A DNA stretch of 64,000 bases from NCBI RefSeq assembly GCF_020740795.1, contig NC_067312.1, positions 65,368,905-65,432,904 on the forward strand, given 5' to 3'. The translations under genes and the position numbers were made by a program. The DNA is from Apus apus. Taxonomy: Eukaryota; Chordata; Aves; Apodiformes; Apodidae. The notes under the pieces are model-generated. The model did no database searches, had not been told where the DNA came from, and worked only from the letters and a program-made list of their open reading frames with translations. Below, piece by piece: positions 15,001 through 58,723 of the stretch (position 1 is the first letter of the stretch; each line of letters begins with the position of its first letter).

Positions 15001-18000
15001 AGGAAGGATGAAACCCAGGGCACTTCTCCTCCCTCAAAGGGGTCTGTTCAGCTTGGCACTGAGGGTACAGTGGCAGTACAGCATTTGGAGGGATGTTCTG
15101 TCACAGCAGTGGGATGCAACCGGTCACTCAAATTCTGTAGTGCAGTAGGTGGCCTACAGCAGGGCTTAGTGTTAATGAGAAGAGTAGGAGTAACTGCAGG
15201 ATGGCTTCTGAACAGGGGAGTGGAAAAAGCTTCCTTGATCCTACACCTTTAGTCAGTATGGGAGATGGTTTTAATTTCATTTAGGAAACAGCTTAGATAC
15301 TGTCTTTTTTCTGTTTTCCTCACAGAATGCAATATGAACAGGGAAAATAAATCTTGGTTGCCTGCTATGTTTTGTGAGAAACCACTATCAATAGACTGCC
15401 TATCTTTGAGCTTGTTTGAGCTCTCTGCTGAGTCCTCACCATTCTGTCCTGTGGGTCAGGTAGGATGAGCACCCTTGACCCATGCAGATGAGCTCAGAGC
15501 GATGGCCTTTGAAGGAGCACTCTCCCTGCATGCTCTTCCACGCCAGCTACCACACAAACTGCTGTGCCATGCCCTGTCCTTTGCCAAAGGTGCTCTCTTC
15601 CTTCTTTGAGAGATGGACCCACTGACCGCTAGGACACCAGATTTCTTAAAGCAGGTCCCATGGTCTATGTAGTGGAAGCTCTGGCTGTGGCACCACTCCC
15701 ATAGCCAATTACTGATTTCCCTAATTCAACTGGCCCTTTCAAGTGCCTTTGACAAGGAGATGGTGGAGTCATTGTCCCTGAAAGTATTTAAGAGAAATAT
15801 AGATACAGTGCTTAGCAGCATGATTTAAGCACTGATTGGGTTGATTACATTATGGTAGGGGGATTTAGGTTATGGTTGGACTAGATGATCTTCTGGGATG
15901 ATTATGTCCAGGGTTAGGACTCTAGCATTAAGGGTCAAGGTTTAAGGGTCTAGGCGTAAGCATCTAGATTAAATGGTCTAGGGTTAAGGGTCTAGGGCAA
16001 GGGTCTGCTTTTATAGGTCTATGGTCAAGCATTGAGGGTAAATGATCTAGCTGATGTGGTGGTGTTAGGTCATAGGCTGGACTTGATCTCAAAGGCCTTG
16101 GTGATTCTGTGTTTCTGTGATTGACAAGAAGAGGCTCCTGAGTCCTTCACTGCTGCTCCCACAGCTGTGTAATCCTTCTTGATAATCTTCCAATTGCTCC
16201 TGGCTATTGCCACTGGTGCTCCCATGAAACAGCAGCAGCTGGTAATAGTCAGTGAGATGTATAACATTTGGTTTGGCGGTCTTTCAGTGACATCCTTGAT
16301 ATGAGCCCCTGGTAAGCAGCAGAGATGGACTGGTTTGGCAGATGGGTGCTTCTGTACCTTTTGGAGGAGAGTCTCCCACTACTATCACCTGTTGCCTTTT
16401 CTTGCCTGCACTAGTTGTTATGCAGTGAGCTGATTGGGCTGACCTACTCGGTTCCAGTATCTTAACCTGTTGCAACACGTTTTTCTTCTTCACCTTAGGC
16501 TCTGAGGCAGGTCTCTTCCTGCAAAGAGCTTCCTTTTCTCTCTTTTTTTTTTGGCTTCTCTCCTTTCTGTGTGTGCCAGTGCAGGAGTCATTGGCTGTTT
16601 GGCTGTAGTGTGTGACTTTGCTGCAGTCAGCGCTTGGATCCAGCTGTCTTACCTCCTTACCTCCTTTTCTGCCTTTTCACTGTTTCCTGCAGCTCAGCCA
16701 CCTGCTGCAGGAGGCCTCCATGTGGACATAAAGGCTTTGACCAACCTGGTCTAGTGGGAGGTATCCCTGCCTATGCAGAGGGGGTTAGAACTAAATCATG
16801 TTTAAGGTCTCTTCCAACCCAAACTATTCAATGATTCTGTGAAGCTGAATGCCAAGAGGAAAACACAAGGTGTAGTTAAATAATTGTGTGCCCGTTTAAT
16901 TCTACCCTGCAAAAATGCAAAGTGGACAATTCTACTTCCCTTAAATTTTGGTTTTTAATTCTTAAGGTTCATGGTAAAAACAGAGCCAAAAGACTTTTAG
17001 CTGAAAGTCTTTCTGGTGGTGACATTCTGTGGCACCTTCAATATTTGAGAACAGCAAAACAGATGTTTCTTTAATGCTGTTTCTTTACTTTTAAAAGCAG
17101 AATAATGGCTTACATTTTGTTCATGTAGAGTCCTTGAATTGTCTTCTGCTTTGGCCTTCTCAAATTGTAAGAATTGCCTAATAACTAAACTTAAGTTATT
17201 AGGGAATGTGGGGATATTTTTTTTAGGTGACATATGTGAAAGTTTAAGGGAAACTAGTATGAGAATTTTTGCAAGTCTCTGTATTGGCAGTGATCCTCTC
17301 ATGATCTTTCAAGTTCCATCACTAATACTGGTAAAAATGCAATACATTAGTTTTTAAAGAAATAAGTATGCTTACAGCAGCTAGTATTCCAGCCTTTTTT
17401 TTTTCACCCTTGTTCTCTTCCACCATTTTTGTTGTGTCAAAATTTTGATATTCTATGGCAAATACATTAAAACCTTTTGGCATTCTATCTCCAGATATGG
17501 AAAATATTGTTCTCTTACAGAGTAAGATAATTCCTTGCAACAGTACTTATCTTCATCACTGAATTTTGAAGCTAGTTATAAAACTTCGTTCAGCATATAC
17601 TTTCAGTTAGATTATTTACTTTTCTGGATGACAGAACTTGGTTCTGAATCATCTTGCTCCAGATTGGCAAAGTACCTTCTGGTTCTATAAAATTATTTTA
17701 GGTGACCCCCTGTATTTTTGGTCATAGGTATATCTGGGAAAAAAAAAAGTGAAGAGGGTTTCCACCTTGCAAATGAGCTTGGAATGTTTGCATCAGAAAA
17801 ATCAGACCACGTGATACAACACTTAAGCTCCTTTTCTGTTTCCTCAAATCGATGTACATTTTTTGGTTCCTAAACTAAATCACAGGTGAAATGAAGGCTT
17901 GGGGAACTTTTTACTTTTACATCTCAAGTTTTCCTTAGACTTTTGTTTTGCTTGTTCATCCTATTTTCTGTTCTAACTTGCTTCTGAAGCAAGAAGAGGA

Positions 18001-21000
18001 AAAAATGAATTCTGTAAGCAGCGCATAATACTTTACACATATTTATGTTGCAGACAAAGGGAATTTATTTCAATTGCTTGCTGCTGTCATAATTTTAACC
18101 CTGGGTTAACTGCCCAGGGTTCTTTGCTTCCGTTTCTATTTTGCAACACTAAGTAACATATAAATGACTTGGATTTTTTTGAAAGAGGGAAGTAGTTAAA
18201 TATATTAATTATTAATGTTTGAGAACTCTTCATTGGGGCTTTTATTAAATCCTATTAGAGCTTTAAGCTCTTTGTTCCACTGAAATTTTTTGTTATTTTA
18301 CCAGCATTTCAAAGCTCCTGACTCCAACTGAGATAATAGTAGAGAGGTACGACACTGGAAAGAACTTGTGGGAGAGAGAAGCATAGCAAATGGAAGCATA
18401 CACTAGCTTTCTTACATGGTTAACACAGTTTGAAATTGCTGTATCTTTCACTTCCTTGTACCTTTACACGTGCTAATTTATCCTTATTTCCTCTCTTTTA
18501 ATGACCCATGATGCAGTATCTGCAAATTCTTTTCTTAAACTGTCAGTTTGTCATTTAGCAGGGTGTTCTTTGTTCAAAATATTTGTTTTTCTCTGCCGTG
18601 TTTCTAGCCTGCAAGAAAGCTGTTCAGGCAGTCACCTGGAAGATGCCATTAATGTGGTCTGTGGAAATCTGTGTTAAGATGACAACTTGTGCTATTACAT
18701 GGCCACCCTGAAGCCTTTTGCAGTGACTAGCATGGCAGCAGATAGGGAAGGAAATCCAGTCTGCTTCAACTAGAGGTTGAAACCTGTCGAATTTCAATGC
18801 TGTTGAGTTCTTGCTGCATTAGCAGTGTATGCCAGAAGTCAGTGGAGTTCTGTGGTGAGGATGAATATAAAATAGCAGTTAAATTACACCTGTCTACCCC
18901 CAATCTCTTGGAAATTGGTATAAACTTGAATCTATAAAGTCTGTCACTTGTAAAGCAAAGGGTTCAGTCTTAAACTTACTGATCTTTACTTCGCGTTTTC
19001 ATAGGAGGCAAGGAATTTTGGCTGAAGTCCTCCTTAGTGTTTTAAGAATACTTTTTTAAGAGTACTTTAAGAATCCTAGTGTTTGCTAAGTTCCGTGCCT
19101 ATTATGTCACACAGTGAAATTGCTCTCAAAACAAACCGCTAAATGCTAGTGACTGAAGCTTAATTTAATTGAATATTCCAACATCTTCATGCCTTGGCAA
19201 CTAGACAGCAAGGCTTTTGCCCTGTCAGAAATTCCACTCCTAAAACCATGTCTGGTTCAGAAGAGTAGGGTAAGTACATTAAATGTTTAAACGTCAATAG
19301 GTTAATGTTAAGATGAGACTTGTAAGTCAGAATACAGTACAGTTCTAAAAACATTTTCTGGAACATTCCCTGTATATTAAAATAAAGTGGTAAATCTGTG
19401 ACTGGCAGAATTTAAATGCAGGTGATTGAGTAAATTACAGTGCTTTAAAGTTATGTCACATTAAAAATTACCAAAAAAGAGCTGTGCAACAGGGAGTAGA
19501 AAGTGGTGTTTTCATTGGAAATTATCTCTAAAATGCAGCTATGAATTCTAGAGATAATGTATGTAGCTATGTAATAATGTACTACTTTATTCTAGTTCTC
19601 TGCAGGTTGTAATAGTGTGTAATAGAATTAGCAGCTGTAAAACTAAAGGCTAGTTGAAATCTAACAGCAAACATTAACATACAAGTAAAAATATGTCACA
19701 TAGCAGGCAATCAAACATTTCTAAATGCAAATATGAGTCCTTCCAGGCACTTGCAAAGTTGTGATCTGTAAAAAAAAATTGTAATTCTGCTAATAGTTAT
19801 TTCAGCTTTAAATCCAAAGGCATGGAAGGAGAGATTGGCTCATAGTGGCTTCCAGCTTGCTCACAGTTTCTTTTACACTGAAATAAAAGAGTGAAATACT
19901 TGCAGTTCTGAATTGGGCAGGAGAAGCAGCACATCCAGCTCCACTGCTGTTCAGCAGCACAAATGTGGTTTAGCATCTAATTAAACAGAGGCCTTACATT
20001 TTGTAACAAAAAGGGACGCTAGAGGTATCATGTATTTCAGATCCCTGATGCATACAGCCCACAGAGCAGTTAATTTGTTGTAGTGGTGGTTGCTGCCCTG
20101 TGTGGGCAATATGACCATCTCCAAGGCAGGGCATGTGTCCCTGGTGGGCAGCTAAAGCTTTCTGTCCAATTGGTTAGTCGGGAGTAATGCACATTCTCAT
20201 TGTGTAACTGTGAGAGGAGGCTCCCTGTTCTACCTCCTGGTTCCTGGGCTGACCACATACAGCACTGCTTCTGCTGCCTGAAGTTCTCTGTCATATCATA
20301 GTTCACTTATCCAAAGTGGGACTCCCAGCAGCAGGGAGTTTATCAGGAAACTGAAGGCAGTGGAGGGTGGGTTGGAGGAGTCTAGAACTCCTCCCCACAC
20401 CCCTGCGTGAGCTAGGAGGCCGAGCTCGAAAAGGGACAGAGAAGAGAATAGGGAGTGTTACAGAAAGGGATAGACAAAATGTAACTTCTGTTGGGAGAGG
20501 ACTTTTCGTAAGGAATGTACTGGTTAATAAAAATGTAACCAAAGTTTAAAGAATAGAGTGAAACATGCTAACCAGCAGCATGTACGGTGTTTTTTTTCCC
20601 CTCATAGTGTAGCACTCTTTGAAATACTGTTTCAAAGTGTTAGAAAGTATTACTGTTTCAAGCCGTGAAGAAAGGAATTGCAATACTAGTGTTAGTACAA
20701 GCACGGAGGAATTGTGCTAATCCTTTGGGTGTCAAGTTTGATCTTCCTGTTCCAGACTGTTTTAGTAACCTGCCATATCAAATTACAAACCCAAGCTGAA
20801 GAAAATGTGAGACTACAAGTTGTAACCTGTATTTCCTTTCATAACTAATTGTTTATTTATAAGTAGCAGTGAAGGTTTTCAGTGTGCTTGTCAGGCTGTA
20901 ACTCATTCTTTGTTTGTTTTCCAGCCATCAGATGCTTTGATATTGGGAAAGATTAAAAATGTGGACTGTGTGCTGTTGGCAAGGTAAATGAGGATTTAAT

Positions 21001-24000
21001 GACTTTTATATTGTGTGACTCGAAGTTATCCCAAAAGTACTTCTCTTTTTACATCTGGTGAACTGAGTTTTAACTTTGACTTCATCTTGCTCTGTGTAGT
21101 TGCTAGCCTAGGTAAGTGGTGCCTAATAGCCTCAGTAATCAGTGTGCTCCCTGGATTTGCACATTTCCTTTGTGAAACTGGGATATTGCCTGTTTCCAGA
21201 TGAGCTATATGTCTAGTACCAATGTAGACTCTTCAAAATAATTATCTTTGATGGTTTAGTCTTCTGGCTGTTACCTTTACTGCTTAAGAGGCTGCATCCA
21301 CTGTAGGTCTCCCTCCCAGGATCATTTTTATTAATAGAGCCAGTGTCCAGACAAGTGAGGGTGATGAATCAAGTCCAAGATCCATTCAGTCCAAGCAGTC
21401 AGAGATGGGACCAGCGACAGGGCTGGGGACAAGTCTGCAGCATGTGACCAAAGTCCATCCAGAAGAGAGGTTTTGAGAGAAACTACAGCACAGGTCTGAA
21501 GGCTGTCTAGGAGACAGGACTGGGGACAGGCACACCTGTGACATAGCTCAGGCCAGGAGTGAAGGCTGGGGCCAGAGCTTAGAGGTGAGAGAGCAGCAAG
21601 GCTCACAGACAGCTGGTATTGGGGTGGAAGCCTAGGGTGAGACTGGCCAGAGCAATTAGCACCCAGTGGTGCACTCAGTGCCCTGGTTCTTTTCATGCCA
21701 GTGTTTTTCCATTAAGCTGCTGACTTGCCATTTCTGCAGCTGCACTTCTGGCTGTTTTCACTTTTCATGTCTTGCATGGATTTTGCATGTGTTTTATTAC
21801 ACCTGAACAACACTTTTCTCATTTTCTCAAATTAAATATTAAGCCACCCTCTCATAGCTGTGCTGTATCAAAGTAGGTCTCGAGCTACAGATGGCTGAAC
21901 TACTCTGCTGTGCTTTAGATCCCCACTGGGTTTTATGACCATTCACATAGGACTCTTGTGAGTTTACTTTTTGGGGCTGAAGTATCTGCAGCTTCACTTT
22001 GTGTTTTGGGAAATACAACGAGCTGCTCATGAATACTGGATTTAAAAATGAAGGCTGGAAGATGATTATTTCAGTGACTGCAATATGAAACAATGAATCT
22101 ACATGCCTAGCAGCTTCTCAGAAGTGCTAATGACAACGTGGGAATCCTGCCTGTCAGTACTTGTTCATGTTGTGTGCCACTTCCAGTTCCCAGTTGATCG
22201 AGTTCTTAAAACCTTTTGGTCTCTGTGAAAGAATAAATCAGGAAATTAAGCCCTTTCTTTCCTCTTACGTGGCTGAAAATAATTTTCATATGCATTCAGT
22301 CATTATGTGAGAGATACACCTTTGCAGTGATGACAGAGATATCACAAAAGCTTGTGCTTATAAGACTAAGTATTTGTGGTGTTGGAGAAGAAAAATGTAC
22401 TGCAACGGTGTGAAGTGATTCTTCTAATTTTTGAAAGCTGTCAAATAATTTTAACAGCAAAGAGAAAAATGTGATGATTCTACTGTTTTCTTTGTGAAGG
22501 CAACAGATTAAAACAGTGTGCTATTTCTGTTTTTGATTTCCTGTAACATGCCACTCTTTTCTGGATGTGAGAATAAAAGCAGCACTTCTAAGAACAAAAT
22601 TTGTAGACGTGTATATACATTTTATGCATTTGTTGTAGTTTATGAAAGATTTAATTTGCTACACCTCTGTGGAATCTTTGGATTCTATTGAACTGACTTT
22701 AAAAATTCAGAGAAAAATGCTTTTTCTACTTTTGAACCTGCTGAAGTATATTTGGATTGAATTTTCCATGTTCTTTTCACTGCAGTCTCAATTGAACTTA
22801 GAAGTTTTGTGCTTAAAAAGAAAAATACACCACTACTTAAACACTGAGAATCTTAACACAGTTAGGAAAACAAGCTACTTTGGAAGTAGCTGAAAGGTTC
22901 ACTTTAACTTCCAATACTGTTAAGGAAACTACATTTCCTGGAATTCTCTTTGTCTGGGAGAAAGAAGGACATTTCAATCTGATTTATTTTCCTCTCTTGC
23001 AACATGTATTTTGGCAGACATGGAAGGCATCATACAATTATGCCATCAAACGTCAATTACCGTGCCAATATCTGGGCATTAAAAGAAGAAAATTGTTCAC
23101 ATGTGTTAGTGACTACTGCCTGTGGTTCATTACAAGAAGAAATACAACCTGGTGATCTTGTCATAATTGACCAGTTCATTGACAGGTGAGTAACATTTCT
23201 TTACCTTGGTTCTTATGGCAAATGGTGTGATTCATACAAGAAGACAAGATAGGAAACAGGTATGAGATTACAAGAAGTTCAGCTCTAATGGACACAGAAG
23301 AAATACCAGGCTTTGCAAAACAGCCTCAAATTAACTGAAGTATAGCTCCTTGGGAAGAGCCTTCCTTTGAGAGGAGATCTCCTGTTCTCAGATGCGGGGA
23401 GGAACATGGATAAGAGCACTGACTGTTCTAAGTTTTAAGACGAATCTGAAATGAGATGGAGAGGCATAAGAAAGCCTAGTAGGAACCAGGTAGGAAAATA
23501 TATTCAGTAATGATGAGGCTCTACAGAAGAGAGATCAAATGCAACACAGTGGGGAAAGAGAGGAGGTTGTCTTAAAACAAGGATAGATGCTAACATTATT
23601 TATTTGCTAGGAATGGCTCAATGGTTCAAATCTGCCTTTATTCTCACCCTAAGCCTAGGAACTTACAGACATGTCACCTGGCCCCATGTTGAATAGCACT
23701 GGCCTTTGCAGGGTTGCAGCCTTCTCTTCAGTAGAGAAATTGTTTCATTCTGACTGCAAACACACATTGTCCGTTCCTCAGAGCAGTTACAGGTCTTATT
23801 GTTACTTATTCTCGTGCAGTTTGTGTGTATGGTGCTGAATATAGTGGCGTTTCTTTTTTAGGTCATGAGTGATGTGGCCATTCTCTCCAAAGGACATAGG
23901 ATACCTCCAAGTCAGAGATTAATACTGGTGCATATTTGATCTTTCTTCAGGCCTTTTCTGAGTGAAAGGGCCTGAGTAACAACATCTAAGGAAATGGACT

Positions 24001-27000
24001 ATGGCTTTTCCCATTTCCTCCAATTCTAAATAATTATTAGGAGACACTGAAAAAAAGTGTAAAATCAGATATATTCTATTTGCAGATCTTCAGTATCCCC
24101 TAAAGGAAAAATTAATATTAGTGTTTCAACACATTTTAACAGCTGTAGCCCATTTTGCATATGCGTTTAGTTTTGTATTAAGTTTTGTATTTTAACCATG
24201 GATTGAATTTGGCCATTACCTGCCTTTTCCCCTGTAAAGTATGATACGTGACACACTGGGAGGAAGAAGGGAGTGTCTCAAAGAATTTTGTTCTAGAGGG
24301 TTTTTGTCATCCAGTTGTCTGAGTTAGCTTCAGGCAGTGCATTTGAAGGTATAATGATAGCAGGTAACAGTTTCAGTAGTGGTCAAAATGGCATACTGGA
24401 TGGTAAATTCTGCAGCATGTTTGACTGTTTCCATGAGAGAAAACAGTTTCTCAGTTGAAAGAAGGGAGAAAAAGGATTCTTCTATTTTGCAGGCTGCCAA
24501 TGCATATGTGTAGTCTTTCTGAGAATTTGAAGACATCCTGTTGCAGCTTTTTCTGGTTCAGAAAAACCTCACACCTCTCTTGTTCAGGAAGCTGTTCATA
24601 TGAATTCCCATCCTCTCAATGTAGTAACGCAATGATAGGAACAAGCTCTAGCTTTGTGGCAATTCAAACTTGATCCCTTCCCCTCCTGAAAGCTTGCTGT
24701 GCTCTTTGTTTTTTCAGAGATTACTTGCCTAACTATTAAATGTAGCTAATTTATTTTGGGGAGAATTACAGCATAAGGAGGCTGTTTGTGTAATTTAGAA
24801 GCAAATCAGCATTACAGTGTCTTGTGACCAATAGATTTTCTCTAATTAATTGAGAATGCCCTCCTTTAATAACACTGTTATACTCTTGAGCTAAATTCTG
24901 AAAGGTTTGTACCAAAGAGAAACAGTATTGCAAGTGGCCATTAATGTAATTCTGATATTTTTGTTCCCTCCTAGGAAAGCAGTTGTTATGGATTTGTGTA
25001 ATTAATCTTGCTTTCTCTTCCATTTTCTCCCCATTCTTCCCTCTGAGCATGTTTTCTGCTTTTCTAGGACAACGAAAAGACATTGTACTTTATACGATGG
25101 ACAGCATTCCAGTCTTTCAGGAGTATGTCACATTCCAATGGCAGAGCCATTCTGCACCAAAACCAGAGAGGTTAGTGAATTCTGTAACAGTATTTAGAAA
25201 TTATACTATTACAGTGCTTATTCATGATACAGTGGTCTGATTATGCATTCTTAGAATGCAGAGGCAATCTGCACCTCTTTAATCCTGTTTCTGAGAATGT
25301 GTCATGGTATTAAGGAAAAATGGAAGGCATGGGAAGTAAAATATCTTGTGTCTATAGGAGCTGTGTTCCTAAGGGAGGTTTGCAGAAGATGTCAGTTGGC
25401 AATCTAGATTTTTCTGAGATTTTAATAACAGAACAGAACATCTTTAATTATCAGGTAAAGAACCAAGAGAGCAACAAAGTGACAGAGCAGGTAGACAGAA
25501 TAGGAATTAGTTCCCTTTATGTTCTGAATAAAACTGCACCTATGGTAGAGGCACTTTACATACTTAATACAAATAATTAAGTAAATAGCACTTCAGCATT
25601 CACAGAAATTACAATATTACAATTAAGTAAATAGCACTTCAACGTTCACAGAAATTACAGTATTACATTTGTGCTTTTGTGCGTTGTAGCAGTGGGTGGT
25701 GGCAGAGAGTCAAAGTTTAGTTTAAAGGGTGCTAAATGTAGAAACAAAGTAAATTACAATAGTCTTCTTATCTGTTACTCTTAGTTTTGGCACTTCAGGC
25801 TTTTTCAGGTTTCAGAAAGACTTAGTCTAAGCAGTATCAAACACTGCTCTGTTTTTCAACACATTGATAAGCTTCTGGGAGAAGTATATATGGGATTAAT
25901 TATACCACCACAGCATATTCTTAGACCTGAGGAAAAGGGAAGGTGAAGACAGACCTGGCATTTTATTATGAAATGCTGTTATGGAATGATCAGAAGGTTC
26001 AGGGAGGTATGTGCTCCAGGGCCCAGAGATGCTTAAAGAATCAGTCATATCCGCCTAAGAGACTCTCTTTGTCCAGTCAGTTACTACACTGAGCAGGACA
26101 ACGACAAATTGTGAAGCAGGTGGCCCAATCTGCACCTAAAGCACGTACAAAAACTTGTGCTGCTAAGCTGTTCTGCTCTCATCACCAGTTTGCTTCAGTG
26201 TCATTATAGGCTATTTTTGTAAATTGACCAGACACAGTGTGGTTTTGAGCTACCCATCAGCAGGTGCAGAGCCCTGTTAGAACAGTGCTTCAGTACACTG
26301 GGAATCAAGGTGTTGTGCAATGAAGTAAAGATATTTTAAGTCTCATGGGGAAGCAAACCACTACATATTATGTATGTGCAGGCTTTTCTCTTCTTCCATT
26401 GAACATTATGAAAATACTTTGTGCTTTTCATGCAACAAGTGCACAGCCCCATGGTCTTACCAAAGATTGGCTGGCATATAGTTGCTTACTGACTTCAAAC
26501 ATCGTGTCACATAATGATAGAAGCAAAAGGAGTTTGCTGAGAGCTAACTGTGCACTTTCTGAAACTGATTAAAAACAGTGTTATTACTGAAGTGATTGGC
26601 AGTACTTCACGCTATGTCTCTTTCTCATTTTGTAAAAAAGGCAAGTGGAAATTGCATAGGCCATTTCATGAGGTTGCAGGAAACTTACACCAGGGCTAGT
26701 TTTCATTCAGTGAAGTAGATAGAGACAATGTTCTTTGTGCGTTACATTTTTCGAAAAACCGACAAGAGAAATGGTCTTTTTCAAATAGAGAAAAAACATT
26801 TAGGTACTTCCCAGTCTCACATGTGATCATTATCTCATTAGCCCATGCATTCTAATCAGCATAACAGATGTTTCAAAGAACATGTGGGTTTGAGCTGTTA
26901 GCGAGGCTGAAAAGAGATGCTTTTGCTTCATTTGAAAATACCAGATAAAAGTGCCTTAAACTTTTTTTCTGGAACTATCCCTAAATATGATCGGAATAAT

Positions 27001-30000
27001 TTCATCCCATTTTGCCTTAATTCAGGGGAATTTCATAGATAAATGTAATAATGATAAAACCAAAACTATTAATGTAACAGACTAATTAAGGAATTTTGCG
27101 TGAAAAATCTGAAAACTTAAATTACATTAAAAAACTTAAATTACTTAAATTACATTAGTGCAAGTACATGAAAACATTCCATTTTATTTGGTTTACACAC
27201 TGTGTATTAGATGGTAATCTGAAAGGTGTTTATCTTTTCTCCAACTGCAAACTTCTTAATAATGTAGTGTGCCTTGGATACTACTGCTTTTAGATAATGA
27301 AGCTCAGTGTAACATCTTATAGGGACTAAAAGTTGGAACTTTGTAAAGAGTTTTGGGGAAATACTGCTTACCTGTGGTTTAAGTCAAACCACAATTGAAG
27401 TTGTCTGTTGATTTATTAACACTGTGATTAACTGTGATTAACTGGCAATCGGTGAATCATACATTTGGAATGAATTTCAGCAATAAACCACAATATTAGG
27501 TGTGATTAACATCTGATTAATGTACAGCATGTTAATAAACACCTACAAAGTTCTAAGTGTTCTGCTGTGGCTAATCCCTGGCAGCTTTGCTTTGACCTTA
27601 CACACATGTTAATCCACTTACATGCACAAATACCCTTCCCCAGCACAGGTGGGTTACATGCACACCTACCCTCTTCCCACTTCCCTCTTCCCACCCACCA
27701 CTCATGGGAGTGCATGTTTACCTGTTTACATGCATCTGTGGTGGGAGATGCGAGTACTCCAGCTTTACATGTAGTTAGGCTGCTGCACACAACCCACTGA
27801 TCTATATGCCAGCAAGGAGGCACCCCACAATGTCACGCACCACGCTCAAGGTAGCACATATGGATGCTCCAACCAGCTGGAGTGTCGGTTTCCCAAAGCA
27901 CTGGCAGGGAGGCTGCTCCACATGTCCTGTGTGAAGGTCATGGTGCTGACAAGACAGCTTCCTGTGGTGTCACACTAGGTTTTTATGGCTGCTGTTTTGT
28001 GGAGATCTCTCCTCTCCTGTCAGATTTTTTTCATGCTGCTTTTATACTTATTTTCAAGCTTTTATTTTCTTATGATGACCATTTTAAATGCATGTCATCA
28101 GAGTTACTTTCCCCTTCCTACTCAGGACAGTTGTCCTTGTCAGGGTGTCCTAGTCCCATTTACATGTGCTGGTAAACTCTTATTCCAACTGTATCAACTG
28201 GTGTTAGCTAGGCCATTTACCAAGGAAGAAAGTCACGATGATTCTGCCATATAAAAGTTCCTAGTTGGAACTGTAAAGACTGTGAAGTATATGGTATATG
28301 TAGAGTCATGGTATATGCCCAGTGACTGGCATAGGAAAATGTGGTTATAATTTCTCTGCAGATTCCCAGGGTACTCTTTGAAGTATAGGCTTGTAAGTTT
28401 GGCTTTCAAAAGTACTGTTCTCACCAGCTCAACTCCACCATGCTGTAATGTAGTGTTTAGTGGATGTTTCCCCATACTGTTCTCAGTGTAAGCACAGCCT
28501 AAATAACATGCAAAAATTTTCTGTTTTCCAGTCTCACTGTTCTGCATAGAAAACAGTAATCCAGCTGATACTGACAAAACTACATGAGTTCAAGATCATT
28601 CCTGTTAGTAGGATTACTAATTTCTCTTGCCGGATAAGGAAACTGAAACTGGTCCATGGTTTTGGACAGCTGTGACCATAAGAAGCTGGACTGCTTTGTA
28701 CAAAGCTAATTTCTTTTGTATGTATGGGATGCAAAAGCAGTGCACCAGGGAAATTATTTCCCAATATTGGCATGTTTTGCAGATTCTTATTGAGACTGCC
28801 AAAAAGCTTGGGCTCCAGTGTCATTCCAAGGGGACAATGATCACAATTGAAGGTCCTCGTTTCAGTTCTCGAGCAGAAAGCTTGATGTTTCGCAGCTGGG
28901 GAGCTGATGTTATCAACATGACCACAGTGCCTGAAGTGATTCTTGCAAAAGAAGCTGGAATGAGTTATGCTAGTATTGCCATGGCAACAGATTATGACTG
29001 CTGGAAGGAACACGAAGAAGCAGTAAGTGAAACTTTTTTCCTCTGGTTCTTGTCCCGAGGGATCTGGATGAGAACCTGTCAGTTTTGATAAGAGATCACA
29101 TACTGAACTAAGTTATTTTCTTACCTGCATCAGTATCACTGAGTTATTCTGTATTAACGATTGTGAAAGAACAGAATGAATTGTTGCTGTCTTGTTCATT
29201 TTCATAAATATGCTTTGCTACTAGTAAATCTTTTGTCTCCTCTTGTCTGACTCAGGGGGCCTGTATGTATGATGTTCGTGAGCTCTGTGTATGAACTTGT
29301 CTTCCTGTAATTAGTCTGGTGATTTTTCTTTTGCAGCTCTGTGCAAAATGGTGTATATGCTTTAGTTCTCTTTGTGTGAAATATAATGAGATGCATACCC
29401 ACAGCATAAAAGTTTTTACTGGCTAAAAACGATTGTGGTGTTTCAAGGTTTCGCCTTTGAACATAGAGTTGTATGAGTTAAATTAATTTATTTGAGTATT
29501 TAAGATGTGTGCCATCAAAATTGAGATACACAACTCAGTTTTATTGTATTTCTAGGTTTCAGTGGATAAAGTTTTAAAGATACTGAAAGGGAATGCAAAT
29601 AAGGCTACTAGCATACTCCTAACTGCTATACCTCAGATAGGTTCCATGGAATGGACAGACACCCTGCACACCCTGAAAGTAAGTACACATTTGAGGCTGA
29701 TGAGTATTTGGGACAGTAAATGTATATATACACATAATATATGTATATTTTCCAAGATATTTCTGCTTAAATTGTAACTTCTTGGAGTAGATGCCTCAAC
29801 AGACCAAATCTGTTCAAGATGGGTAAACAAATTCAATTAAGACTCACAAGCTTTATTGTAAAGGTCTAGCTTCAATTTTACAAGAAGTGTTACAAAAGGT
29901 AAAAAAATCAAGGACTTCTATAAATGGTTGATGAAGTGTTCATAGCACCAGTAAGGCGGTGTCAGGGAAATTTCTGGATAGGATGGGTCAGCCATGGGTG

Positions 30001-44607: not shown

Positions 44608-44735
44608 GGTTTCGTTTTTTTTGTTGTTTTTGTTTGTTTGTTTGTGTTTTTGTTGGTTTTGTTTGTTTGTTTGTTTTGTTTTGTTTGTTTGTTTTGGTGG
44701 GTTGTTTTTTGTTTGTTTGTTTGTTTTTCCTCTGC
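44608..44735 (+). repeat. T/G-only simple repeat (TTTG)n
   Basis: About 125 bases composed almost only of T and G, mostly GTTT units. On the CDKN2A transcript strand it reads as (CAAA)n, 350-470 bases after the p16 stop. Confidence 0.85.
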
Positions 44736-45080
44736 AGCACCGGCCTTTGCTGCCTGTCTTCCTGGGAGCCTGCCCGGCGGGAGGACCAGGAACACTCCCT
44801 CGGCCGTGTTTTTGTCCTTTACACTCTTTCTCAGAAAACGCAACAGCACGAGTCGCCTGGCAGTAGCGGGACACCGAGCGCCCGGGAGAAGCTGTGGGGC
44901 AGAGGAAGACCACTCTCTGCAGCCCGCAGCACCACCGGCTGGATGGCGGGGGTCCTGGCCGGTACCCGCTGCGGAGGCGGGGAGAGGGTCTCTGCGAGCG
45001 GGGGTGGCTGCGGCCGGGGGTCCTGGCGCTGCGGAGCGGGGGGCGGCGGGCAGGGCGGGGCGAGGGGCGGCAGGGGCGGG

Positions 45081-45371
45081 TCAGGGCTCAGCACTTTCCG
45101 CCGGTGCGGCGGGGGGGAGCTGCAGCTGCCGCAGGTACCGGCCCACGGGCCCGTGCGGACCCCCCTCCGCCACGTCGATGGGGAGGCGGCCGCGGCCGTC
45201 GGGCAGGTCGAGGCGCGCCCCGGCCCGGTGCAGGGCCACCAGCGTCTGCAGGAAGCCGGAGCGGGCAGCATCGTGAGCCGGGAGGCAGCCGGTGCGGGGG
45301 TCGGGGCGGTTGGGGTCTGCCCCGTGCTGCAGCAGCAGCTCGGCCACCCGCGGGCTGCCCAGCATCATCAC
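45081..45371 (-). CDS. CDKN2A: CDKN2A exon 2 (shared by p16 and ARF transcripts)
   Basis: Begins GTG ATG ATG CTG (V M M L) after the acceptor CCCCGCAG and reads 96 codons to TGA at 45083-45081. It contains ankyrin repeats 2 to 4. The tail after RYLRQ ([14 protein letters not shown]) is Pro/Ala-rich and differs from the CDKN2B tail. The first 247 coding bases and 26 bases of intron match CDKN2B exon 2 with one difference. In the ARF transcript it supplies only one base of the last codon and the stop. Confidence 0.93.
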
Positions 45372-47305
45372 CTGCGGGGAGAGACAGCGTCAGGAGCACC
45401 GCGGAGAGCCGGGGGACTGCGGGGATGGGGGGTCTTTGGGGCACGGTTTGCCTGCGTCGGCTGTTTGTACCGGTGACCTGCGCGAGGGCACAAGGCTCGG
45501 CTCCCTACGGCTCCTTTCCACCCTGATGTAGACTATGACTCACTGGTAAACTAACATATTCCCGAGGTTGCCTGTGATTTCCAAACTAGGTACTGCATAT
45601 CGGTATGTTGTCATACATTTTATACCATTTGCATATACCATGGTATATATAGTAACTGTGTGTGCATATATATGCACACATGCACACACACATCAATGTA
45701 CACGCATATACATATACACAGGCTCTGGATGGGGTCCTTTCTCCCTCTCTCAGCCCTGGCTAAGCCTGCTCTGCTTCTCACAGAAGCCAGGAGAGCTGCT
45801 GCACACCTGTGGGTACCTCACAAAACTTCCCTGCTGAGCCCTGGTGTCTCTCTGCAGCTGAACCAAAAAGCACAAACTTCTGGGAGGTTTAAGCATGCAC
45901 GATGGAACAAAAAGAAAACAAAAACAGACAAGCAAAAAGAACAACATGCAAACAAACAAAAGAAAATTACGCTTGAAGTTCCACTTTCTGCATTCCCCGG
46001 TCATTTTCAACAGAGTTTTAACCTTCATTAGTTGTATCTTAACACTGTAGAAAATACCTCGAGACAATTTGCTTTCTTGTTAATTTCTTTATCGGTAGAA
46101 TTTTGTTATGGACTACAGATAATTTATAAATTCCTACAGATTAAGCTTTTCAGAAAAATAAATAGAGCACACATGTCACAGTGGCAGCCATTTTGCAAAG
46201 TTCTGGTGAGGGAAACAGAACTTAGTTTCTCTCTGAAATGAAGGAAAGAAAGAGAAAATTTATAACAATTTGTAGAACCTTTTCATCTGGAATTTGAACC
46301 TACAACAGGAACAAAACGAACAGCATAGGCAGTGCCTTTCTCAGAAGTTTACTTCAGAAAAAATAGTTTCTTTTCCATCTGAAGTGTAAGGACTAAAACG
46401 GTTGTTCACCTTAGCTGGTGAATTATTAAATATATCCCTTCAAATGACACCTCGAGAAAAGATGTTCATGAAACATACAGCTCCAGCTGAAGTCAGAGTA
46501 CATTAACCGTTCAATGGACATTTAAAACCCCGCAGCCTAAGAATATCCATGAATATAACACACTTCCAGTTCTCAGAATGCCTGGAATGCAGCTTCACTA
46601 AGCACTGGTACTTGTAGTATCTATTGATAAATGCTACCACTGCTGATGAAGAGTGGTTACTAGAATTACTGCTAACTATAGTTTCAAGCTACAACTTATA
46701 CCCAGTGACAATTTCTACTTCTTCTGAGCCGTTCGTTCACATGAAAACACTTAGTAAGGGGCCCCAGTTTGACTTCCTTGGGGGAAAAGAACCATTAAGG
46801 ATGTATTGAAAACAAACAAATGAAAAAACAATCAAGAAAAGTTAATCGAAGTGCAGCCAACTCCGAGAACCCATCTGGAAGCGGATTTTGCAGTCCCACT
46901 TCTGCTTTTGGGTACCATCTTGCATAATTCGTTTGCTGCCGTCGGTGCCCCTCTGAACTCCACCTAGTATTTGCAGGAGGGCGAGGGTTCAGAAAAGCGC
47001 CCGCTGGTAATTCTGGCAGCTGCGGCTGGACTCCGGCTCCGATCATCGCCATGAAAACGTAATTCAGAGCCAGTCCTCCTCCCCCGTCAGCGTGACAGAG
47101 GACAGCCCGCCCCCCCCCCCTCTGCCCCCCTCACCCCCCCCACCCTACCGCTGTTCTGTACCTGGAGCGGAGTCCTCCCGAAACAATTAGTCCCGTTGGG
47201 ATCCGCTCCCGCCTCCAGCAGCTTCCGCACCTCCTCGCGGTCCCCGCGGGCAGCCGCGCTGCACAGCAGGTCGCCAGGACCCCCACCCCGGAAAAACCCC
47301 TCCAT
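45081..47305 (-). CDS. CDKN2A: p16INK4a-like cyclin-dependent kinase inhibitor (exons 1-alpha + 2)
   Basis: Exon 1-alpha is 47305-47162 (48 codons, from MEGFFRGGG to GRTPLQ) and exon 2 is 45371-45081 (96 codons and TGA), joined in phase 0 exactly as in human p16 (CAG/GTG; donor CAG/GTACAG, acceptor CCCCGCAG). The product is 144 aa (human 156). Ankyrin-repeat hallmarks are seen: [70 protein letters not shown]. Asp82 corresponds to human Asp84, a CDK4/6-contact residue. INK4 proteins bind CDK4/6 and block cyclin D-driven Rb phosphorylation. The ATG has G at -3 and +4. The exon sits between exon 2 and the ARF exon, the amniote position of exon 1-alpha. No third coding exon is needed because exon 2 contains the stop. 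Chicken was reported to lack p16INK4a, so expression needs proof. Confidence 0.82.
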
Positions 47306-50300
47306 CGCTCCCCGACAGCAAGGCCCACTCTGCACGGCCGCTCCTGATTCTCCTCCCCTCGTCGGGATATGGCAGCTCCGCCCATCCTGGGCCTGGCAGA
47401 GCCCCCCAGCCCACACCTCCGTGGAGGGGAGCGCGGTGCCGACGGCTGCGGCAGCACCGCGCAACCTCCCGAGGCGGCATAGGCGGGGCGGCGAGGGGCC
47501 TCGAGGTGCCGGGGACTGCCCCGCAAGCTGGGAGGCGGGAGCAGCTGCGCACACCCGATGTCACACACCCCGCCCCCCCGGCACCGAGTGGGGAGGCTGC
47601 CGGGGAGCTGCCCCCCCCCCCCCCCGGGGATGCAGTCAGTGCGGGAGAGAGCAGAGGATGGGGGTTGCGGTCCTGAGCCCCCCGCCCTTTCCCAGACCGG
47701 GGGGCGGTGGGCAGGAATGGGGAGCTCAGCCAGACCGGCGAGCAGCCTCTCCGGGCTGCCCTGGCCCGGGCAGGTGGAACGTGCCCCGCGTTCATGGTGC
47801 GTGGGGAGCTGCGGGGAGACCAGAGCCTTTCTGGGGCACAGAAAGACTCTTGTGCCAGGAATGGATTTGCCTTCTGCTTCCGGAGCGGGGGGGGGCTGCC
47901 TTGTCCCGAGCGCCTGTGCACCGTGGGTCTGGGGTCAGTCCCTCCGCCCGCCGGGAGCCGGAGCGGGCGGCCCGGATGAGGAAGAGAGCCGTGCCCGCAG
48001 GAAGTCTGAGATCCACCTCATGGCACCCGGCAGAGGACCGCTCCACCGCGGCCCGGCAGGAGCCTCTCGCCGGCAGGAAAGGCACGGAGGAACCCAGCTG
48101 GGATGAGGTGTGGCTACACCTCGGCAGAGGGGTCTGTCAGTTGTCTTAAAATTCCCAATCAATCAGATTCCCAATCAAGGGCTGACGATGACCGCTGGCT
48201 TTCTGTGAAACTGAGCTGATAGTGGGGTTTATGCATCTATGCATTTAAATGTATGCATACATCTCTTTTTCTGAATACACAAGTACAAAACATTTTATAC
48301 ACCCACACGTCATCATATAGGTAAGTGAAGAACTTATTAGAAGAGCCAGGGGTCTTGTCTGCATCTTCATCTCTAATAATATCTGTTAAAAGCTGCGAAG
48401 TTGCAGAAGAGTGTAAAATAACTAACACGGCCCCGTGCTAATGGTTAGTGATCCTCCAAATCACTAATCAAGCTTCTGGACCATTGCAAGGACACAATTT
48501 TAAGATACATTATTGAAGTCACTGTTTTCCTCCACTTCAAAAGCAAATCCAATTTTGCACAGTTCTGTTATCGACAAAAAACCTCGGTTAATCGAAACAC
48601 AACAACACACGGTCATATCTGAAGTCAGGGAAATAGTAGCCGAGCTTGTACTAATGTGTCTTGGATTACACTTGTTTACTGGCATCCACCTTTTCTCTCC
48701 AGCAAACTTCACTGCAAAGTTATTCCTCCACCACCCCTTGCCAAAAAACCCAACAAACAAACACCGCCCCCCCCAAAAAGCCCCAACAGCACAACAACCA
48801 ACAAACAAAAAAAACCAAGGCAAAAAAACCCACCCAACAAATACAAACACAAAAAACGCCACCAGAACAAAACAACTCCCCCAACCCAACCAAAAAACCC
48901 CCACAACAAACAAACAAATCGTTTCATGTTAAGCAGTCTCCACATATTACGTTTCTGCTCCTTTCTAAAGGCACTGTTCAACGATACAGAACTTCAACAC
49001 TAAAAACCGGTTCATTTTAATACTACGGTACTGCACTCCTGCGCATTGTTCTAAGATATGTTGACAATAGCACGCACGACAGAAAAGCGATTATTCAGTT
49101 ACCAAACCCAGCCATTTTATACCCTGTTGAAGGCTTAGCGAGTACTATACCCTTTTAGCTAGGGTGGGGGGAGGAGAAAAAAAAGAAAAAATAAAGTATT
49201 GAAATACATTTACGTGAGTTATTTTACTAATCTACAAGTATTTCGGGAATAAGGAGTTAATCAAACGCTACAAAGAGGCAGATTAAAGAGAACGTAGTGT
49301 TCAGATTTGCTTGCCTGTGAATAAGCAAAAAGGGAGCAGGAGGGGCAGGGGGTGGGGGCTGCACTGGAGAGGCTGCATCGAAGTAATCTGATTTTTACAG
49401 TGAAGGGAAAAAAAAAACAGAGTTGTTTTCAGTTATGCAAAAAATGAGGCAAAAATGATGAGCAGAAATAGTTAATCTGTCGCCTTATAATCTTCAATTG
49501 AAAATGTCAGTGTATTTGCAAAAATAATTATAGTCATTACACATATTGGGTGAGAACAGGAAAATCTAGCACCTTAATTTTAGCCCTTTAGAAACAGTGC
49601 CATATAGGTTTCTTCTGAACAAGAAAATGACCAAAAAGAGAAAAATCAAACAAAGCCACCCTCAACAAAAAGCCCAATCTAAAATAAAACAAAGTTAAAC
49701 CAAAAAGATAAAAAAACAAGCCCCAAAGCTAAACCCACCAAGACCAACCTATCATGCTACAGCCTGCAATAATAAAGAATAAATGTTTTGGTTTCTGTTT
49801 TCTGAGTTGTGTGATATAAAATCGAGCAGAGTGCACTTTTGGATGCAACATGTAATATTATGATATGTAATATACTGCGCTACATAGCAGTGAAATATCC
49901 TGGAGGATGTTGTCTGGAGGGTTTGTCAGAAAAATGTGATTTTTTTTTTCCTAGAAATTCTCCAGAAAATGTTACAACTAGTACTACTTCTGTCCCTCGT
50001 TTCGGGAGATCGAGTCGGAAGAAAAGCAAAAGGACCCGCGTGGCTCTGGATAATCACCTAACAGTTCACAAAAAGTAATAAAGCATTGGCCAGGCAAAAG
50101 AATCCCTTCCTTAATAAACAAGCAGCAAAGTGAAGACAAAAAAAAACCCCCACCAAAACCGAAAAAAACACACACAAGAGGCAAAACAAACGAAATCGCT
50201 CACACCGTCCTAAGAAAAAAGCAGGTTTAAACCCTGCTTGCCTCTATCAGTCTGTTTTGGAGCGCCGGACCCGGCCCAGCCCCACAAGAGGCTCAGAAGA

Positions 50301-52591
50301 AGCTTTGTGGGCACCTTTTCAGCGAAAAATTCTCCTACACTGGTCGAGGAGTCTGACAATGTTATTTGTTTCATCTATTTAACTAAGCAATTTAATTTTG
50401 AACACAGTTTGGGAATAGGATTCGTGTGCCTAAATAGGAAACGAGGTAAAAAGGAGCAGGTTTCTCTTTATTTCCAAACTTATTTTTGCCCTCAAAACGT
50501 TTCCATCTAATCTGAACATGAAGCCACTTTCCTCCTTCAGACTACTGCCGAAATACTACGGATTCGAGGTTCACTGCCTCCGAGTTGCCAAAATATGTGT
50601 ACATTACTCTTCTGACTGTGATGTTTTTAGACCTTAGTATAGAAGTAGCAGAGTTGGTAAAAGGGAAAAATCTCACTTTTTAAAAAACTACACACACACA
50701 CCCTTGTTTTTTTCCTCCCCAGCCCCTTTAGAGTCTGGTTTTCAGCCCATTTCAGTGACTAGTTCAGACCTAACCGGTGTTTTAGAATTCGGCCTCTCCG
50801 AATAAAAGCTCGGGGAGAAAAAAAACAAAACAACAAAAAAGGAAAAAAAAACCCACACAAAAAAGGAAAAAACCCCACAAAAAAGAGAAAAAAGGAAAGA
50901 ACAGGAAAAAAAGGGGGGAAAGGGGGAAAAGGGGAAAAAGGGAAAAAAAGGGAAAAAAGGAAAGAAAAAACGGGGGAAAAAATAAAAAAGAAGGGGAAAA
51001 AAAGGCACAGCAGCAGCATTTACAGCAAGTGTGGAAAGAAAGAAAGAAAAAAAAACCCCTGCCATCCTTCTTGCTTCCTGAGAGGTTATTGTTCTTGCTA
51101 CAGCGAATTTACTTCGAGATAATCAGCATCTTCATATCTGTGTTTTATATGAGAGATTCATGTGTTTCACTTCAGCCAGAGTTTATTGTTTCTTCCCCTC
51201 CCCATTTAGTGTTAAATGAAGAAATTAGGCCTATTACAAATGCAAGACATAAGGTATTTGAAAGTGAAAAGGAAAATTTCGTATTATTTCTTATTTTCAT
51301 ATATATATTCTAATATACACATGTGTGTTTATTTCCCCACAGTTGATTTTAAAAAAGCTCCAAAAGTGATCTAACCAGAGACTGAAGCAGGCAAAGTGTA
51401 CATTGCTTTTTCTCCACATCTCACATCCTAGAGTTTGAAGATTATTTTTTTTTACTTATAATTAGATATATATGTATATAAAATATATAATATCTTTTTT
51501 TGGTAGATATTTTCAGGCAAATATTTTTACTTTCCTTTTTTTCTACCTCTGCTCTTCTCCAGCCTATGCTCTGGATTAGAGCAGGTTGTGTACTCCTCTA
51601 ATAATCCCCCACGAGGATTTTTCAGAAAAAAAAACCCTCTCAGATACTCACAAAAACTAATATTAGCTTCATTTTTCATGTTATAACTAATTATGTGTGA
51701 TAATCGGGCCTAAGCTGCCCTGTGCAGACCCATAGCAGTCCAGTTTTGCATTCCGCAGTCAGGAAAAAGTCTCCAAAACTGCTGGAACCTCGGGTGTCTC
51801 CCAAGGTCAATTATATGACTGTATTTTAATTACTCTTTCTGCGGCAACTCGGCTTATTGCGCATATTTCTGTAACAGCACGAGCAGGCAAAGCAGGCCGC
51901 TGTGTTTCACAGTCTTTTACAGCAGTGGAAAGTAGCACACTCTGGGAAAACAGTGGCCATTTTCTGTCTTCAGAGCAATAGTTATGTTCCTTTTTAGCCA
52001 GGGAGCCTCCTGCCAATGTTGGTGAAGGGTGGTGGGTTTATTTTTGTTCTAAATTAGCTGTAGAGAAAACGCGAAGGAAAACTTCTAGGGGTGGGGGGGG
52101 GGGGGGGGGGGGGGGGGAAGAAGAAAGGCAGAAATAAGTTACAGTAACTTTTCCAGGACCTATTGTTTCCTAATGCGTCTTTAAAAGGGGGGGAGGAAAG
52201 AAAGCAAGACCTAGCAAACTGTTTCCCTTCCCTCCCCTCGTGCCCGTGAGGACCTGACGTGCTGCCGGTGCCATCGGGGCATGCGGGGCGGGGGGCTCCG
52301 GAGCTGCGGGGAGAGGACACCCCGCAGCCGCCTCCTGCTCCCGCCCCCCCGGACCGCCCCCCCCCCCCCCCCCGCCCCCCCCTCGGCCCGCACCCCGGGG
52401 CCCTACCTGGGCCGGGGGCTCCCGCGGCGGCCCCTCCGCAGCAGCAGCAGCAGCAGGGCCCGGCGCAGCGGCCGCTGCTGGCCCAGCGCCCCGAGGAAGC
52501 GGCGGAGGATGCGCCAGCCCAGCGCCCGGGCCCGGCGGCGGCTGCGGGGCCCGCGCCGAAAGCGCAGCGTGCACCTTATCCAGGGGGACAT
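45368..52591 (-). CDS. CDKN2A: ARF, truncated avian form (exon 1-beta plus first bases of exon 2)
   Basis: Exon 1-beta reads from ATG 52591 to the donor CCCAG/GTAGGG, last exon base 52407; it ends two bases into a codon, which exon 2 completes (AG+G, Arg), followed at once by TGA TGA (45370-45365). The product is 62 aa, comparable to chicken p7ARF. Residues 1-13 ([13 protein letters not shown]) align without gaps to the human ARF start, the MDM2-binding region; then follow Arg-rich [29 protein letters not shown] and a run of six Leu. ARF stabilises p53 by binding MDM2, mainly in the nucleolus. Chicken sex-linked barring maps to ARF residues 9 and 10; here these are Leu9 and Arg10. The ATG context is weak (C at -3, T at +4); an in-frame GTG lies six codons upstream. 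Confidence 0.87.
45372..47161 (-). other. CDKN2A: p16 intron (exon 1-alpha to exon 2)
   Basis: 1.8 kb intron with GT (GTACAG) and AG (CCCCGCAG) ends. GC-rich at both ends, AT-rich in the middle. Contains the dinucleotide tract at 45640-45722; no other gene seen. Confidence 0.8.
45640..45722. repeat. Dinucleotide-rich alternating purine-pyrimidine tract
   Basis: TATATA, CACACA and GTGTGCATATATATGCACAC form an alternating, partly palindromic stretch in the sequence upstream of CDKN2A exon 2, inside the intron. Confidence 0.7.
47162..47305 (-). CDS. CDKN2A: CDKN2A exon 1-alpha (p16-specific first coding exon)
   Basis: 48 codons from ATG at 47305 to the donor CAG/GTACAG. The first ankyrin repeat is intact ([32 protein letters not shown]). 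About 21 of the last 38 residues equal those of the CDKN2B exon 1 product, so the two first exons are clearly diverged paralogues, unlike the near-identical second exons. The frame is open for a further 80 codons upstream, but this ATG gives the family-length N-terminus and a good context. Confidence 0.82.
47306..48120 (-). promoter_or_regulatory. CDKN2A: CpG-rich region upstream of exon 1-alpha, likely p16 promoter
   Basis: GC- and CpG-rich DNA ends abruptly near 48130, where AT-rich sequence begins. It includes a C-run at about 47611-47626. Long open frames on both strands are composition artefacts. A CpG island directly upstream of exon 1-alpha is what a functional p16 promoter would show. 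Confidence 0.6.
48725..48922 (+). repeat. A/C-only low-complexity tract
   Basis: Nearly 200 bases almost without G or T, with CAACAAACAAAC-like words and C-runs. Open frames rich in Lys, Pro, Asn and Gln across it are artefacts. Confidence 0.85.
50903..50970 (+). repeat. Homopurine G/A tract
   Basis: 68 consecutive purines with six or more G3-G6 runs separated by A-runs, inside a wider A/G-rich block (50807-51060). Confidence 0.9.
52093..52117 (+). repeat. G25 homopolymer
   Basis: Twenty-five consecutive G within the ARF intron. Length may be inaccurate because homopolymers are error-prone. Confidence 0.85.
52357..52382 (-). repeat. C17-G-C8 tract next to the exon 1-beta donor
   Basis: On the transcript (minus) strand this is G8-C-G17, beginning about 24 bases inside the ARF intron. 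Confidence 0.85.
52407..52591 (-). CDS. CDKN2A: CDKN2A exon 1-beta (ARF first coding exon)
   Basis: 185 coding bases from ATG 52591 to the donor at 52406-52405. The frame would hit TAG within the donor itself (AG GTAG) if unspliced, so spliced and unspliced RNAs encode the same 62 residues ending PRPR. On this strand a very G-rich tract (G8-C-G17) follows the donor after about 24 bases. Confidence 0.88.

Positions 52592-54789: not shown

Positions 54790-54861
<72 letters not shown>
54790..54861 (+). repeat. (TTA)n microsatellite, about 24 units
   Basis: A perfect run of TTA trinucleotides, followed by imperfect ATT/GTT units to about 54950. Confidence 0.95.
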
Positions 54862-57052: not shown

Positions 57053-57316
57053 CTACGCGCGGGGGGGCGGCTGCCGCAGGTACCGGCCCACGGGCCCGTG
57101 CGGACCCCCCTCCGCCACGTCGAGGGGGAGGCGGCCGCGGCCGTCGGGCAGGTCGAGGCGCGCCCCGGCCCGGTGCAGGGCCACCAGCGTCTGCAGGAAG
57201 CCGGAGCGGGCAGCATCGTGAGCCGGGAGGCAGCCGGTGCGGGGGTCGGGGCGGTTGGGGTCTGCCCCGTGCTGCAGCAGCAGCTCGGCCACCCGCGGGC
57301 TGCCCAGCATCATCAC
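57053..57316 (-). CDS. CDKN2B: CDKN2B exon 2
   Basis: Begins V M M L after CCCCGCAG and ends with TAG at 57055-57053. It differs from CDKN2A exon 2 within the shared block by one base (57124), which makes residue 113 Leu instead of Ile. Similarity stops just after the RYLRQ codons. Confidence 0.93.
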
Positions 57317-58723
57317 CTGCGGGGAGAGACAGCGTCAGGAGCCGGAGGAAACAAACCTTCATTTTCCGCGCCTCGGAGGACGGCGGGGCAGGTGGGGAAA
57401 ACCGGCGGCGGGAGATCCGTAGGGGTCGGGAGTGTGCGGGGCTGCACCGGGGCTGCTCTGAGATGGGGGGCGGCGTGACCGTGGGAAGGGGGACGCCCTT
57501 CTCCAGGTGCGTCCCCGCAGGAACAGAGGGAAAGTCCTGAGCCGCTTTGCAGCGGCCCCCGCGGAACCAAACCCGGCGGCTCCCGGGTGCCCACGCCCTC
57601 TTGATCTCCCCCAGAACGCTTTTCTGAGAGGTCTTTGGCAAGGTGACTAGCGTGTGCAGGGAACCAGCCCTCCCTCGCCCCCAGGAAAGACTCAAAACGC
57701 ACCTCCAGACCGAGCCCCTGTCCCGTGCAGCTCCGAAACGCCCGGTAACCCTCCCCCACCCCGGGCTCGCCGTTTTCTAAGCCGCGTTTCCCCCAGCAAA
57801 CCCGGCAGGGCTTTCAGCGCGCGAGTTGATTCCCTGCGGCGTAAAGATGCAGAAAAGAAAAACACTTGTTGGAGGACGGCAACAGATGCGTATTTCCACT
57901 GAAATGCTGCACCGACATTTTGTAGGGGAGAGTTCCGTCAGCACTGCCCATAAAATTTAAACATAACTTCTCAAATTATCCCAGTTTCGTTTAAGTTTGG
58001 AAATTCAAGAAGCTGGTAAGAATTATCTCGGTAATTAACTCAGCTTTAGAAATCTGGTATCTGTTGCTGCTCTGGGCACTACATATATCATCAACACGTT
58101 CACGCTGGCAGACCCAGCCCTTTAGGGACTGCTTAGCCTCTACCTGCAGGGTCTGCTGGGCAAGGCTGCCGCGTCCGGGTGTTCCTGCTCACAAGGGTCA
58201 GTGACACATTGTGAGAGTCAGCATTTTTTCTCAGGAGAGGAAAAACGCTAATAGAAGTGTAAAGCAGAAGACGAAGTGTCATTCTTTTTGAAAAGGTTAC
58301 TCGTGACTTTTTGTTGCGCGTTTATTTGCGAGATGAGCATGAAAGTTCTCGGTTTTGAGTCATTCTACCTCAGCTGGTTAAAATGAAGTCAAGAATTGCT
58401 AAGACTAAAAACTCTCTCTTGCGGAGGTCACAGACTTTCGCCTCTCGCAGCTCCGCTCACGCAGCCCCCGAGCGCAGCCCTTGGGGGGTGGCCGGCCCGG
58501 GGCGGGGGGGTTGCCCCGACGCCGTAGCTTCTGGGCCCCTCCCGGCCTCCACCCCCACGCCCTCCCCCGGCCTCCCTACCTGGATGGGAGTCCGGCCGTA
58601 GGTGTTGACGGCGTTGGGGTCTGCCGCGCCGTCCAGCAGCTCCCTCAGGCGCTGCAGGTCCCCGCGGGCGGCGGCGTTGGCCAGGTCGTCCGCAACCGAC
58701 CCGCCGCCGTCCCGCAGCGCCAT
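57053..58723 (-). CDS. CDKN2B: p15INK4b cyclin-dependent kinase inhibitor (2 exons)
   Basis: Exon 1 is 58723-58580 (48 codons, MALRDGGGS to GRTPIQ, donor CAG/GTAGGG); exon 2 is 57316-57053 (87 codons and TAG, acceptor CCCCGCAG). The product is 135 aa (human p15 138). Four ankyrin repeats are intact: [68 protein letters not shown]. It binds CDK4/6 and arrests cells in G1, typically under TGF-beta control in mammals. The start has a near-perfect Kozak context (GCCATGG). It lies beyond ARF exon 1-beta in the order and orientation of human CDKN2B. The C-terminus after RYLRQ is only PPPRA. Confidence 0.93.
57317..58579 (-). other. CDKN2B: CDKN2B intron
   Basis: 1.26 kb, GTAGGG donor and CCCCGCAG acceptor. 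The 26 bases next to exon 2 are identical to the CDKN2A intron. The middle is AT-rich; no other feature seen. Confidence 0.85.
58580..58723 (-). CDS. CDKN2B: CDKN2B exon 1
   Basis: 48 codons, phase 0 donor CAG/GTAGGG. First ankyrin repeat with [12 protein letters not shown] and [15 protein letters not shown]. It is embedded in a long CpG-rich block, and a GGGACC hexamer array lies about 140-170 bases upstream of the ATG. Confidence 0.92.

Follow-up and report, generated by a model that had tools for sequence, protein, structure and literature searches.

An open p16INK4a-type exon 1-alpha at the CDKN2A locus of a bird, Apus apus

Was p16INK4a lost in birds as a whole, or only on the side of the tree that leads to chicken? 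The excerpted text of PMC2732616 describes a chicken locus that has lost exon 1-alpha, and in which exon 1-beta is spliced to the exon 2 that survives, encoding a protein that terminates at the junction. The absence of p16 from chicken has been repeated in later papers, PMC2732616 (as excerpted) being one of them. The first-pass annotation of the DNA studied here had noted that the chicken INK4b-ARF locus was reported without p16INK4a, and this premise stands at second hand, through the same excerpt. Among the literature matches listed are papers that quote or restate the chicken finding, and p16 in a bird is not reported in any of the titles or abstract openings listed.

The DNA is a stretch of 64,000 nucleotides from Apus apus contig NC_067312.1 (forward-strand positions 65,368,905 to 65,432,904), called the window below; coordinates count from its first letter. 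Along it, MTAP on the plus strand is followed, on the minus strand, by CDKN2A exon 2, exon 1-alpha, ARF exon 1-beta and CDKN2B, an order that we take to be the mammalian one. The coordinates bear out the earlier placement of exon 1-alpha between exon 2 and exon 1-beta. MTAP was matched in six exon stretches within 13260..29678 (starting at 13260, 20922, 23016, 25066, 28780 and 29556); its last exon was unmatched in the window by the MTAP query used. Upstream of the first matched exon, positions 8001-9000 reach a GC content of 0.77, perhaps as the MTAP promoter. CDKN2B (p15INK4b) could be translated from a 48-codon exon 1 (58580..58723, minus strand) and the coding part of exon 2 with its stop (57053..57316, minus strand), giving a p15 of 135 aa. 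The locus is comparatively compact in the window. It also holds an open frame of 321 codons (30628-31593) that we take to resemble a CR1 reverse transcriptase, with what is presumably a CR1-like tail motif at 31762, and a long TTA microsatellite (~54790-54861) between ARF exon 1-beta and CDKN2B. A table in PMC1876622, as excerpted, assigns chicken MTAP and CDKN2A to Z and CDKN2B to chromosome 8, which conflicts with the linkage of CDKN2A and CDKN2B in the window.

CDKN2A exon 1-alpha (p16 codons 1-48) occupies 47162..47305 on the minus strand, as delimited by translation and tblastn. Its 48 codons, read from 47305 to 47162, are free of stops and encode an INK4-like first ankyrin repeat, as the first-pass annotation had proposed. 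In the start context (GGAGCGATGG) positions -3 and +4 are both G, the good Kozak surroundings claimed for it, and the 3' end, CAG/GTACAG (the slash marks the exon boundary), is indeed a GT donor in phase 0, though one that scores weakly. With phase 0 and a place of its own between exon 1-beta of ARF and the common exon 2, close to MTAP and CDKN2B, this first exon is by position that of p16INK4a.

When the window was searched by tblastn with residues 12-50 of human p16, exon 1-alpha was the top match (47.8 bits, E 1.9e-11), followed by the window's p15 exon 1 (46.2 bits). The best score from 100 block-shuffled windows was 26.6 bits, so that the match to p16 exceeds chance. Compared with solved structures, the 48 residues of exon 1-alpha alone retrieved no INK4 chain among the best 60 of 361 matches, nor did p15 exon 1 alone among the best 60 of 299. 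Designed ankyrin proteins dominate in both cases, and the 48 residues by themselves are not enough to tell INK4 from the other ankyrin proteins of solved structure.

A CpG-rich region covers exon 1-alpha and the bases upstream of it (47000..47900), with GC contents of 0.65-0.76 and CpG observed/expected ratios (o/e) of 0.59-0.75 in five 400-base windows starting from 47000 to 47800. The CpG island described upstream of the exon is thus present, albeit borderline in one of these windows. GC boxes occur upstream of exon 1-alpha, and the motif TATA[AT]A is absent from 47306-47700. Over the 500 bases upstream, CpG o/e is 0.63 and TpG/CpA 1.31, indicative of some CpG loss. At the other end of CDKN2A, the downstream interval 43500-45080 is devoid of AATAAA and contains only one ATTAAA (43884).

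Exon 2 (45081..45371, minus strand; p16 codons 49-144 and the stop) was assigned by translation in the joined frame and is preceded at 45371 by an acceptor of the standard type, TCTCTCCCCGCAG. Joining it to exon 1-alpha gives a product of 144 aa ending at 45081. Residues 11-130 of this product align, gap-free, with residues 13-132 of p16 (1bi7; E 2.4e-44), and the match to p15 (1d9s) is of similar strength (E 2.7e-44). These two were the best naturally occurring matches, with four designed or fused ankyrin constructs ranking higher. All four ankyrin repeats align with p16/p15, in agreement with the first-pass annotation, and five ankyrin families exceeded the Pfam cut-off. Of the residues that we assume to contact CDK4/6 in human p16 (E26, D74, D84, R87 and D92), 4/5 are kept in the 1bi7 alignment; human D92 corresponds to Q90, and a Q stands in place of D92 in both CDKN2A and CDKN2B of the window. 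Further differences from mammalian p16INK4a, besides this Q and the weak donor, are that the window protein ends inside exon 2 and that exon 1 has 48 codons, against 50 in human.

Scans with the 144 aa also returned at least 64 loci in prokaryote genome contigs, all with bacterial or archaeal titles and none an avian contaminant, at 30-59% identity over the best segments (lowest E 3e-15, at a locus of 40% identity), and a single locus (33%) from 225 viral stretches. These are ordinary ankyrin genes. Rfam gave 0 matches at the gathering score.

The second exons of CDKN2A and CDKN2B lie 11945 bases apart and are nearly the same. From 45125 to 45397 on the CDKN2A side and from 57070 to 57342 at CDKN2B (both minus strand), 272/273 bases are identical, the one mismatch being at 45179, and the tract includes 26 intron bases. 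On the intron side its edge is sharp, identity falling to 4/20 directly outside, and on the other side it fades gradually over ~45 bases (17, 11 and 8 of 20). Judged from this pattern, the near-identity is best read as recent gene conversion. The two genes also share the length of exon 1, but only 24/48 of the residues that it encodes are alike, and CDKN2B has the stronger donor. Conversion with CDKN2B would keep exon 2 intact whether p16 is used or not. The integrity of exon 2 therefore does not testify independently to p16, and exon 1-alpha alone is informative.

Exon 1-beta of ARF contributes 185 coding bases (52407..52591, minus strand; 61 codons and 2 bases). The last two of these combine with the first base of exon 2 into an AGG codon, directly after which TGA ends ARF at 62 aa; in the ARF phase exon 2 starts with TGATGA. 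Reading on into the intron meets TAG immediately, so that the length is 62 aa in both cases. The 62-aa protein had no match in Pfam. Unlike in the mammalian locus, exon 2 does not serve ARF of the window as coding sequence; the product is a truncated ARF of the chicken type, a short protein that terminates at the junction of exons 1-beta and 2. Chicken ARF, according to the excerpts of PMC5384658 and PMC2732616, has 60 aa and ends at the same junction; its residues 9-10 are V9 and R10 (PMC5384658, as excerpted), where the window has L and R, so that the window sequence is distinct from that chicken one. The two loci likewise both retain exon 2. The ARF truncation is therefore common to the window and chicken, whereas the loss of exon 1-alpha, as reported for chicken in the PMC2732616 excerpt, is not, the exon being intact in the window.

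How well has exon 1-alpha been kept? It has 24/38 identities to human p16 and 24/38 to mouse p15; the corresponding counts in p15 exon 1 of the window are 23/38 and 21/38. Exon 1-alpha also keeps 22/28 of the residues common to the two mammalian proteins (p15 exon 1, 20/28). Lineage-unique changes number 5 in exon 1-alpha vs 6 in p15 exon 1 with human as the outgroup, and 3 vs 6 with mouse. On these small counts, exon 1-alpha appears to have kept as much of the mammalian sequence as p15 exon 1 of the window has. Between the two exons, the NG86 estimate of dN/dS was 0.45/0.91 = 0.49 (from codon 12, 0.34/0.95 = 0.35) and the LWL85 estimate 0.52/0.76 = 0.68 (from codon 12, 0.38/0.76 = 0.50), pairwise values that span both branches and have a high dS. 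Within exon 1-alpha, CpG o/e is 0.89 and TpG/CpA o/e 0.88, from which we conclude that CpGs have not been eroded; GC3 is 37/48, as compared with 45/48 in p15 exon 1. We simulated neutral decay roughly, with assumed rates and an assumed share of indels. At 0.05, 0.1 and 0.2 substitutions per site the exon stayed intact with probabilities of 0.42, 0.19 and 0.03, rising to 0.77, 0.59 and 0.32 when indels were left out. An extra neutral spell of 0.1 would lose ~4 of the 24 identities. The conservation counts, small as they are (38-48 residues), argue against prolonged neutral evolution and are compatible with a recent loss.

Such a recent loss would make exon 1-alpha a newly silenced relic, still open but with a decayed donor, in a locus that no longer makes p16 and whose exon 2 is kept by conversion with CDKN2B. 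The weak donor (47160..47161, minus strand) would fit this reading: with a position weight matrix, it scores 5.0 against 8.9 for the donors of CDKN2B and ARF, and 6.6% of 3200 GT sites on the minus strand score as high. The conversion tract, the LWL85 ratios of 0.5-0.68 and the simulated chance of 0.42 of remaining intact at 0.05 substitutions per site point the same way. Nevertheless, exon 1-alpha shows no greater erosion than p15 exon 1, its CpGs have been kept, and the identities that a neutral spell of 0.1 would cost it also count against silencing, which we consider unlikely.

The weak donor might also mean that splicing takes place elsewhere. Three GTs lie further downstream, at +13 nt (score 5.7), +18 nt (5.9) and +27 nt (7.55); all exceed the exon's own 5.02, two of them slightly and the last clearly. 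The GT at +13 would lead into another frame of exon 2, and those at +18 and +27 are in frame. Use of the +27 site, GGG/GTGAGG, would extend the exon by 27 stop-free nt (47135..47161, minus strand) and add VQNSGRVGG, yielding a p16 variant of 153 aa, lengthened by these nine residues where repeat 1 meets repeat 2 and perhaps altered in its CDK binding. Such a protein strikes us as very improbable, in spite of the better donor, since the insertion would come to lie where two repeats join, p15 exon 1 of the window has its boundary at the place that corresponds to 47162, and GGG/GTGAGG borders a run of eight C (47134-47141 on the plus strand) whose length was possibly misread. The equal length of the two first exons, together with their ungapped alignment and the fact that the locus does undergo conversion, could instead be taken to mean that exon 1-alpha arose later as a copy of exon 1 of CDKN2B and is not the orthologue of the mammalian exon. 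We find this scarcely credible, because exon 1-alpha has 21/38 identities to the window's p15 exon 1 against 24/38 to human p16 and to mouse p15 (small numbers, admittedly), and because it sits where mammals have exon 1-alpha.

We therefore prefer, with a probability of about 0.7, the reading in which the window carries a functional p16INK4a orthologue, its exon 1-alpha orthologous to that of mammals and still used, p16 having disappeared, or been overlooked, on the chicken side alone. In the mechanism that we envisage, the CpG-island promoter upstream of 47305 would drive an exon 1-alpha transcript, splicing of this transcript at 47162 to exon 2 would yield the four-ankyrin INK4 protein of 144 aa, and that protein would bind CDK4/6 and keep RB active during senescence or under stress; the truncated ARF of 62 aa would be made separately, from exon 1-beta at the same locus. 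We favour this reading because frame, start, donor and acceptor are intact, because the similarity to p16/p15 is strong, and because exon 1-alpha is conserved and retains its CpGs, in line with the NG86 ratios and the neutral simulation. It is weakened by the low-scoring donor, Q90, the conversion of exon 2 and the LWL85 ratios, as well as by the CpG loss upstream, the lower GC3 and the lack of AATAAA at 43500-45080.

Since exon 1-alpha is still present in the window, its loss probably does not date back to the ancestor shared by all birds. The first-pass annotation had argued that p16 was lost in a lineage leading to chicken or missed there; its core, that p16 was not lost in the bird ancestor, follows from the presence of the exon, and the chicken loss itself remains second-hand, from the excerpted literature. 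Chicken and the window have the ARF truncation in common but not the reported loss of the exon, and the simplest succession of events would therefore place the truncation first and the loss of p16 later. A fuller scenario, which we regard as an even bet, is a bird ancestor with a complete p16INK4a and an ARF that was truncated by then. The truncation would have released exon 2 from dual coding, conversion with CDKN2B would afterwards have held it close to p15, and exon 1-alpha would have been lost later, on the chicken side.

An intact exon 1-alpha in a bird other than chicken would restrict the absence of p16 to part of the bird tree, and would provide that same succession of ARF truncation and p16 loss. 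Such genes may already figure in automated genome annotation. Senescence dependent on p16 would become testable in birds. If the loss was indeed a later event on the chicken side, birds outside the chicken lineage would keep the p16-RB arm, and chicken would be a poor model of bird senescence.
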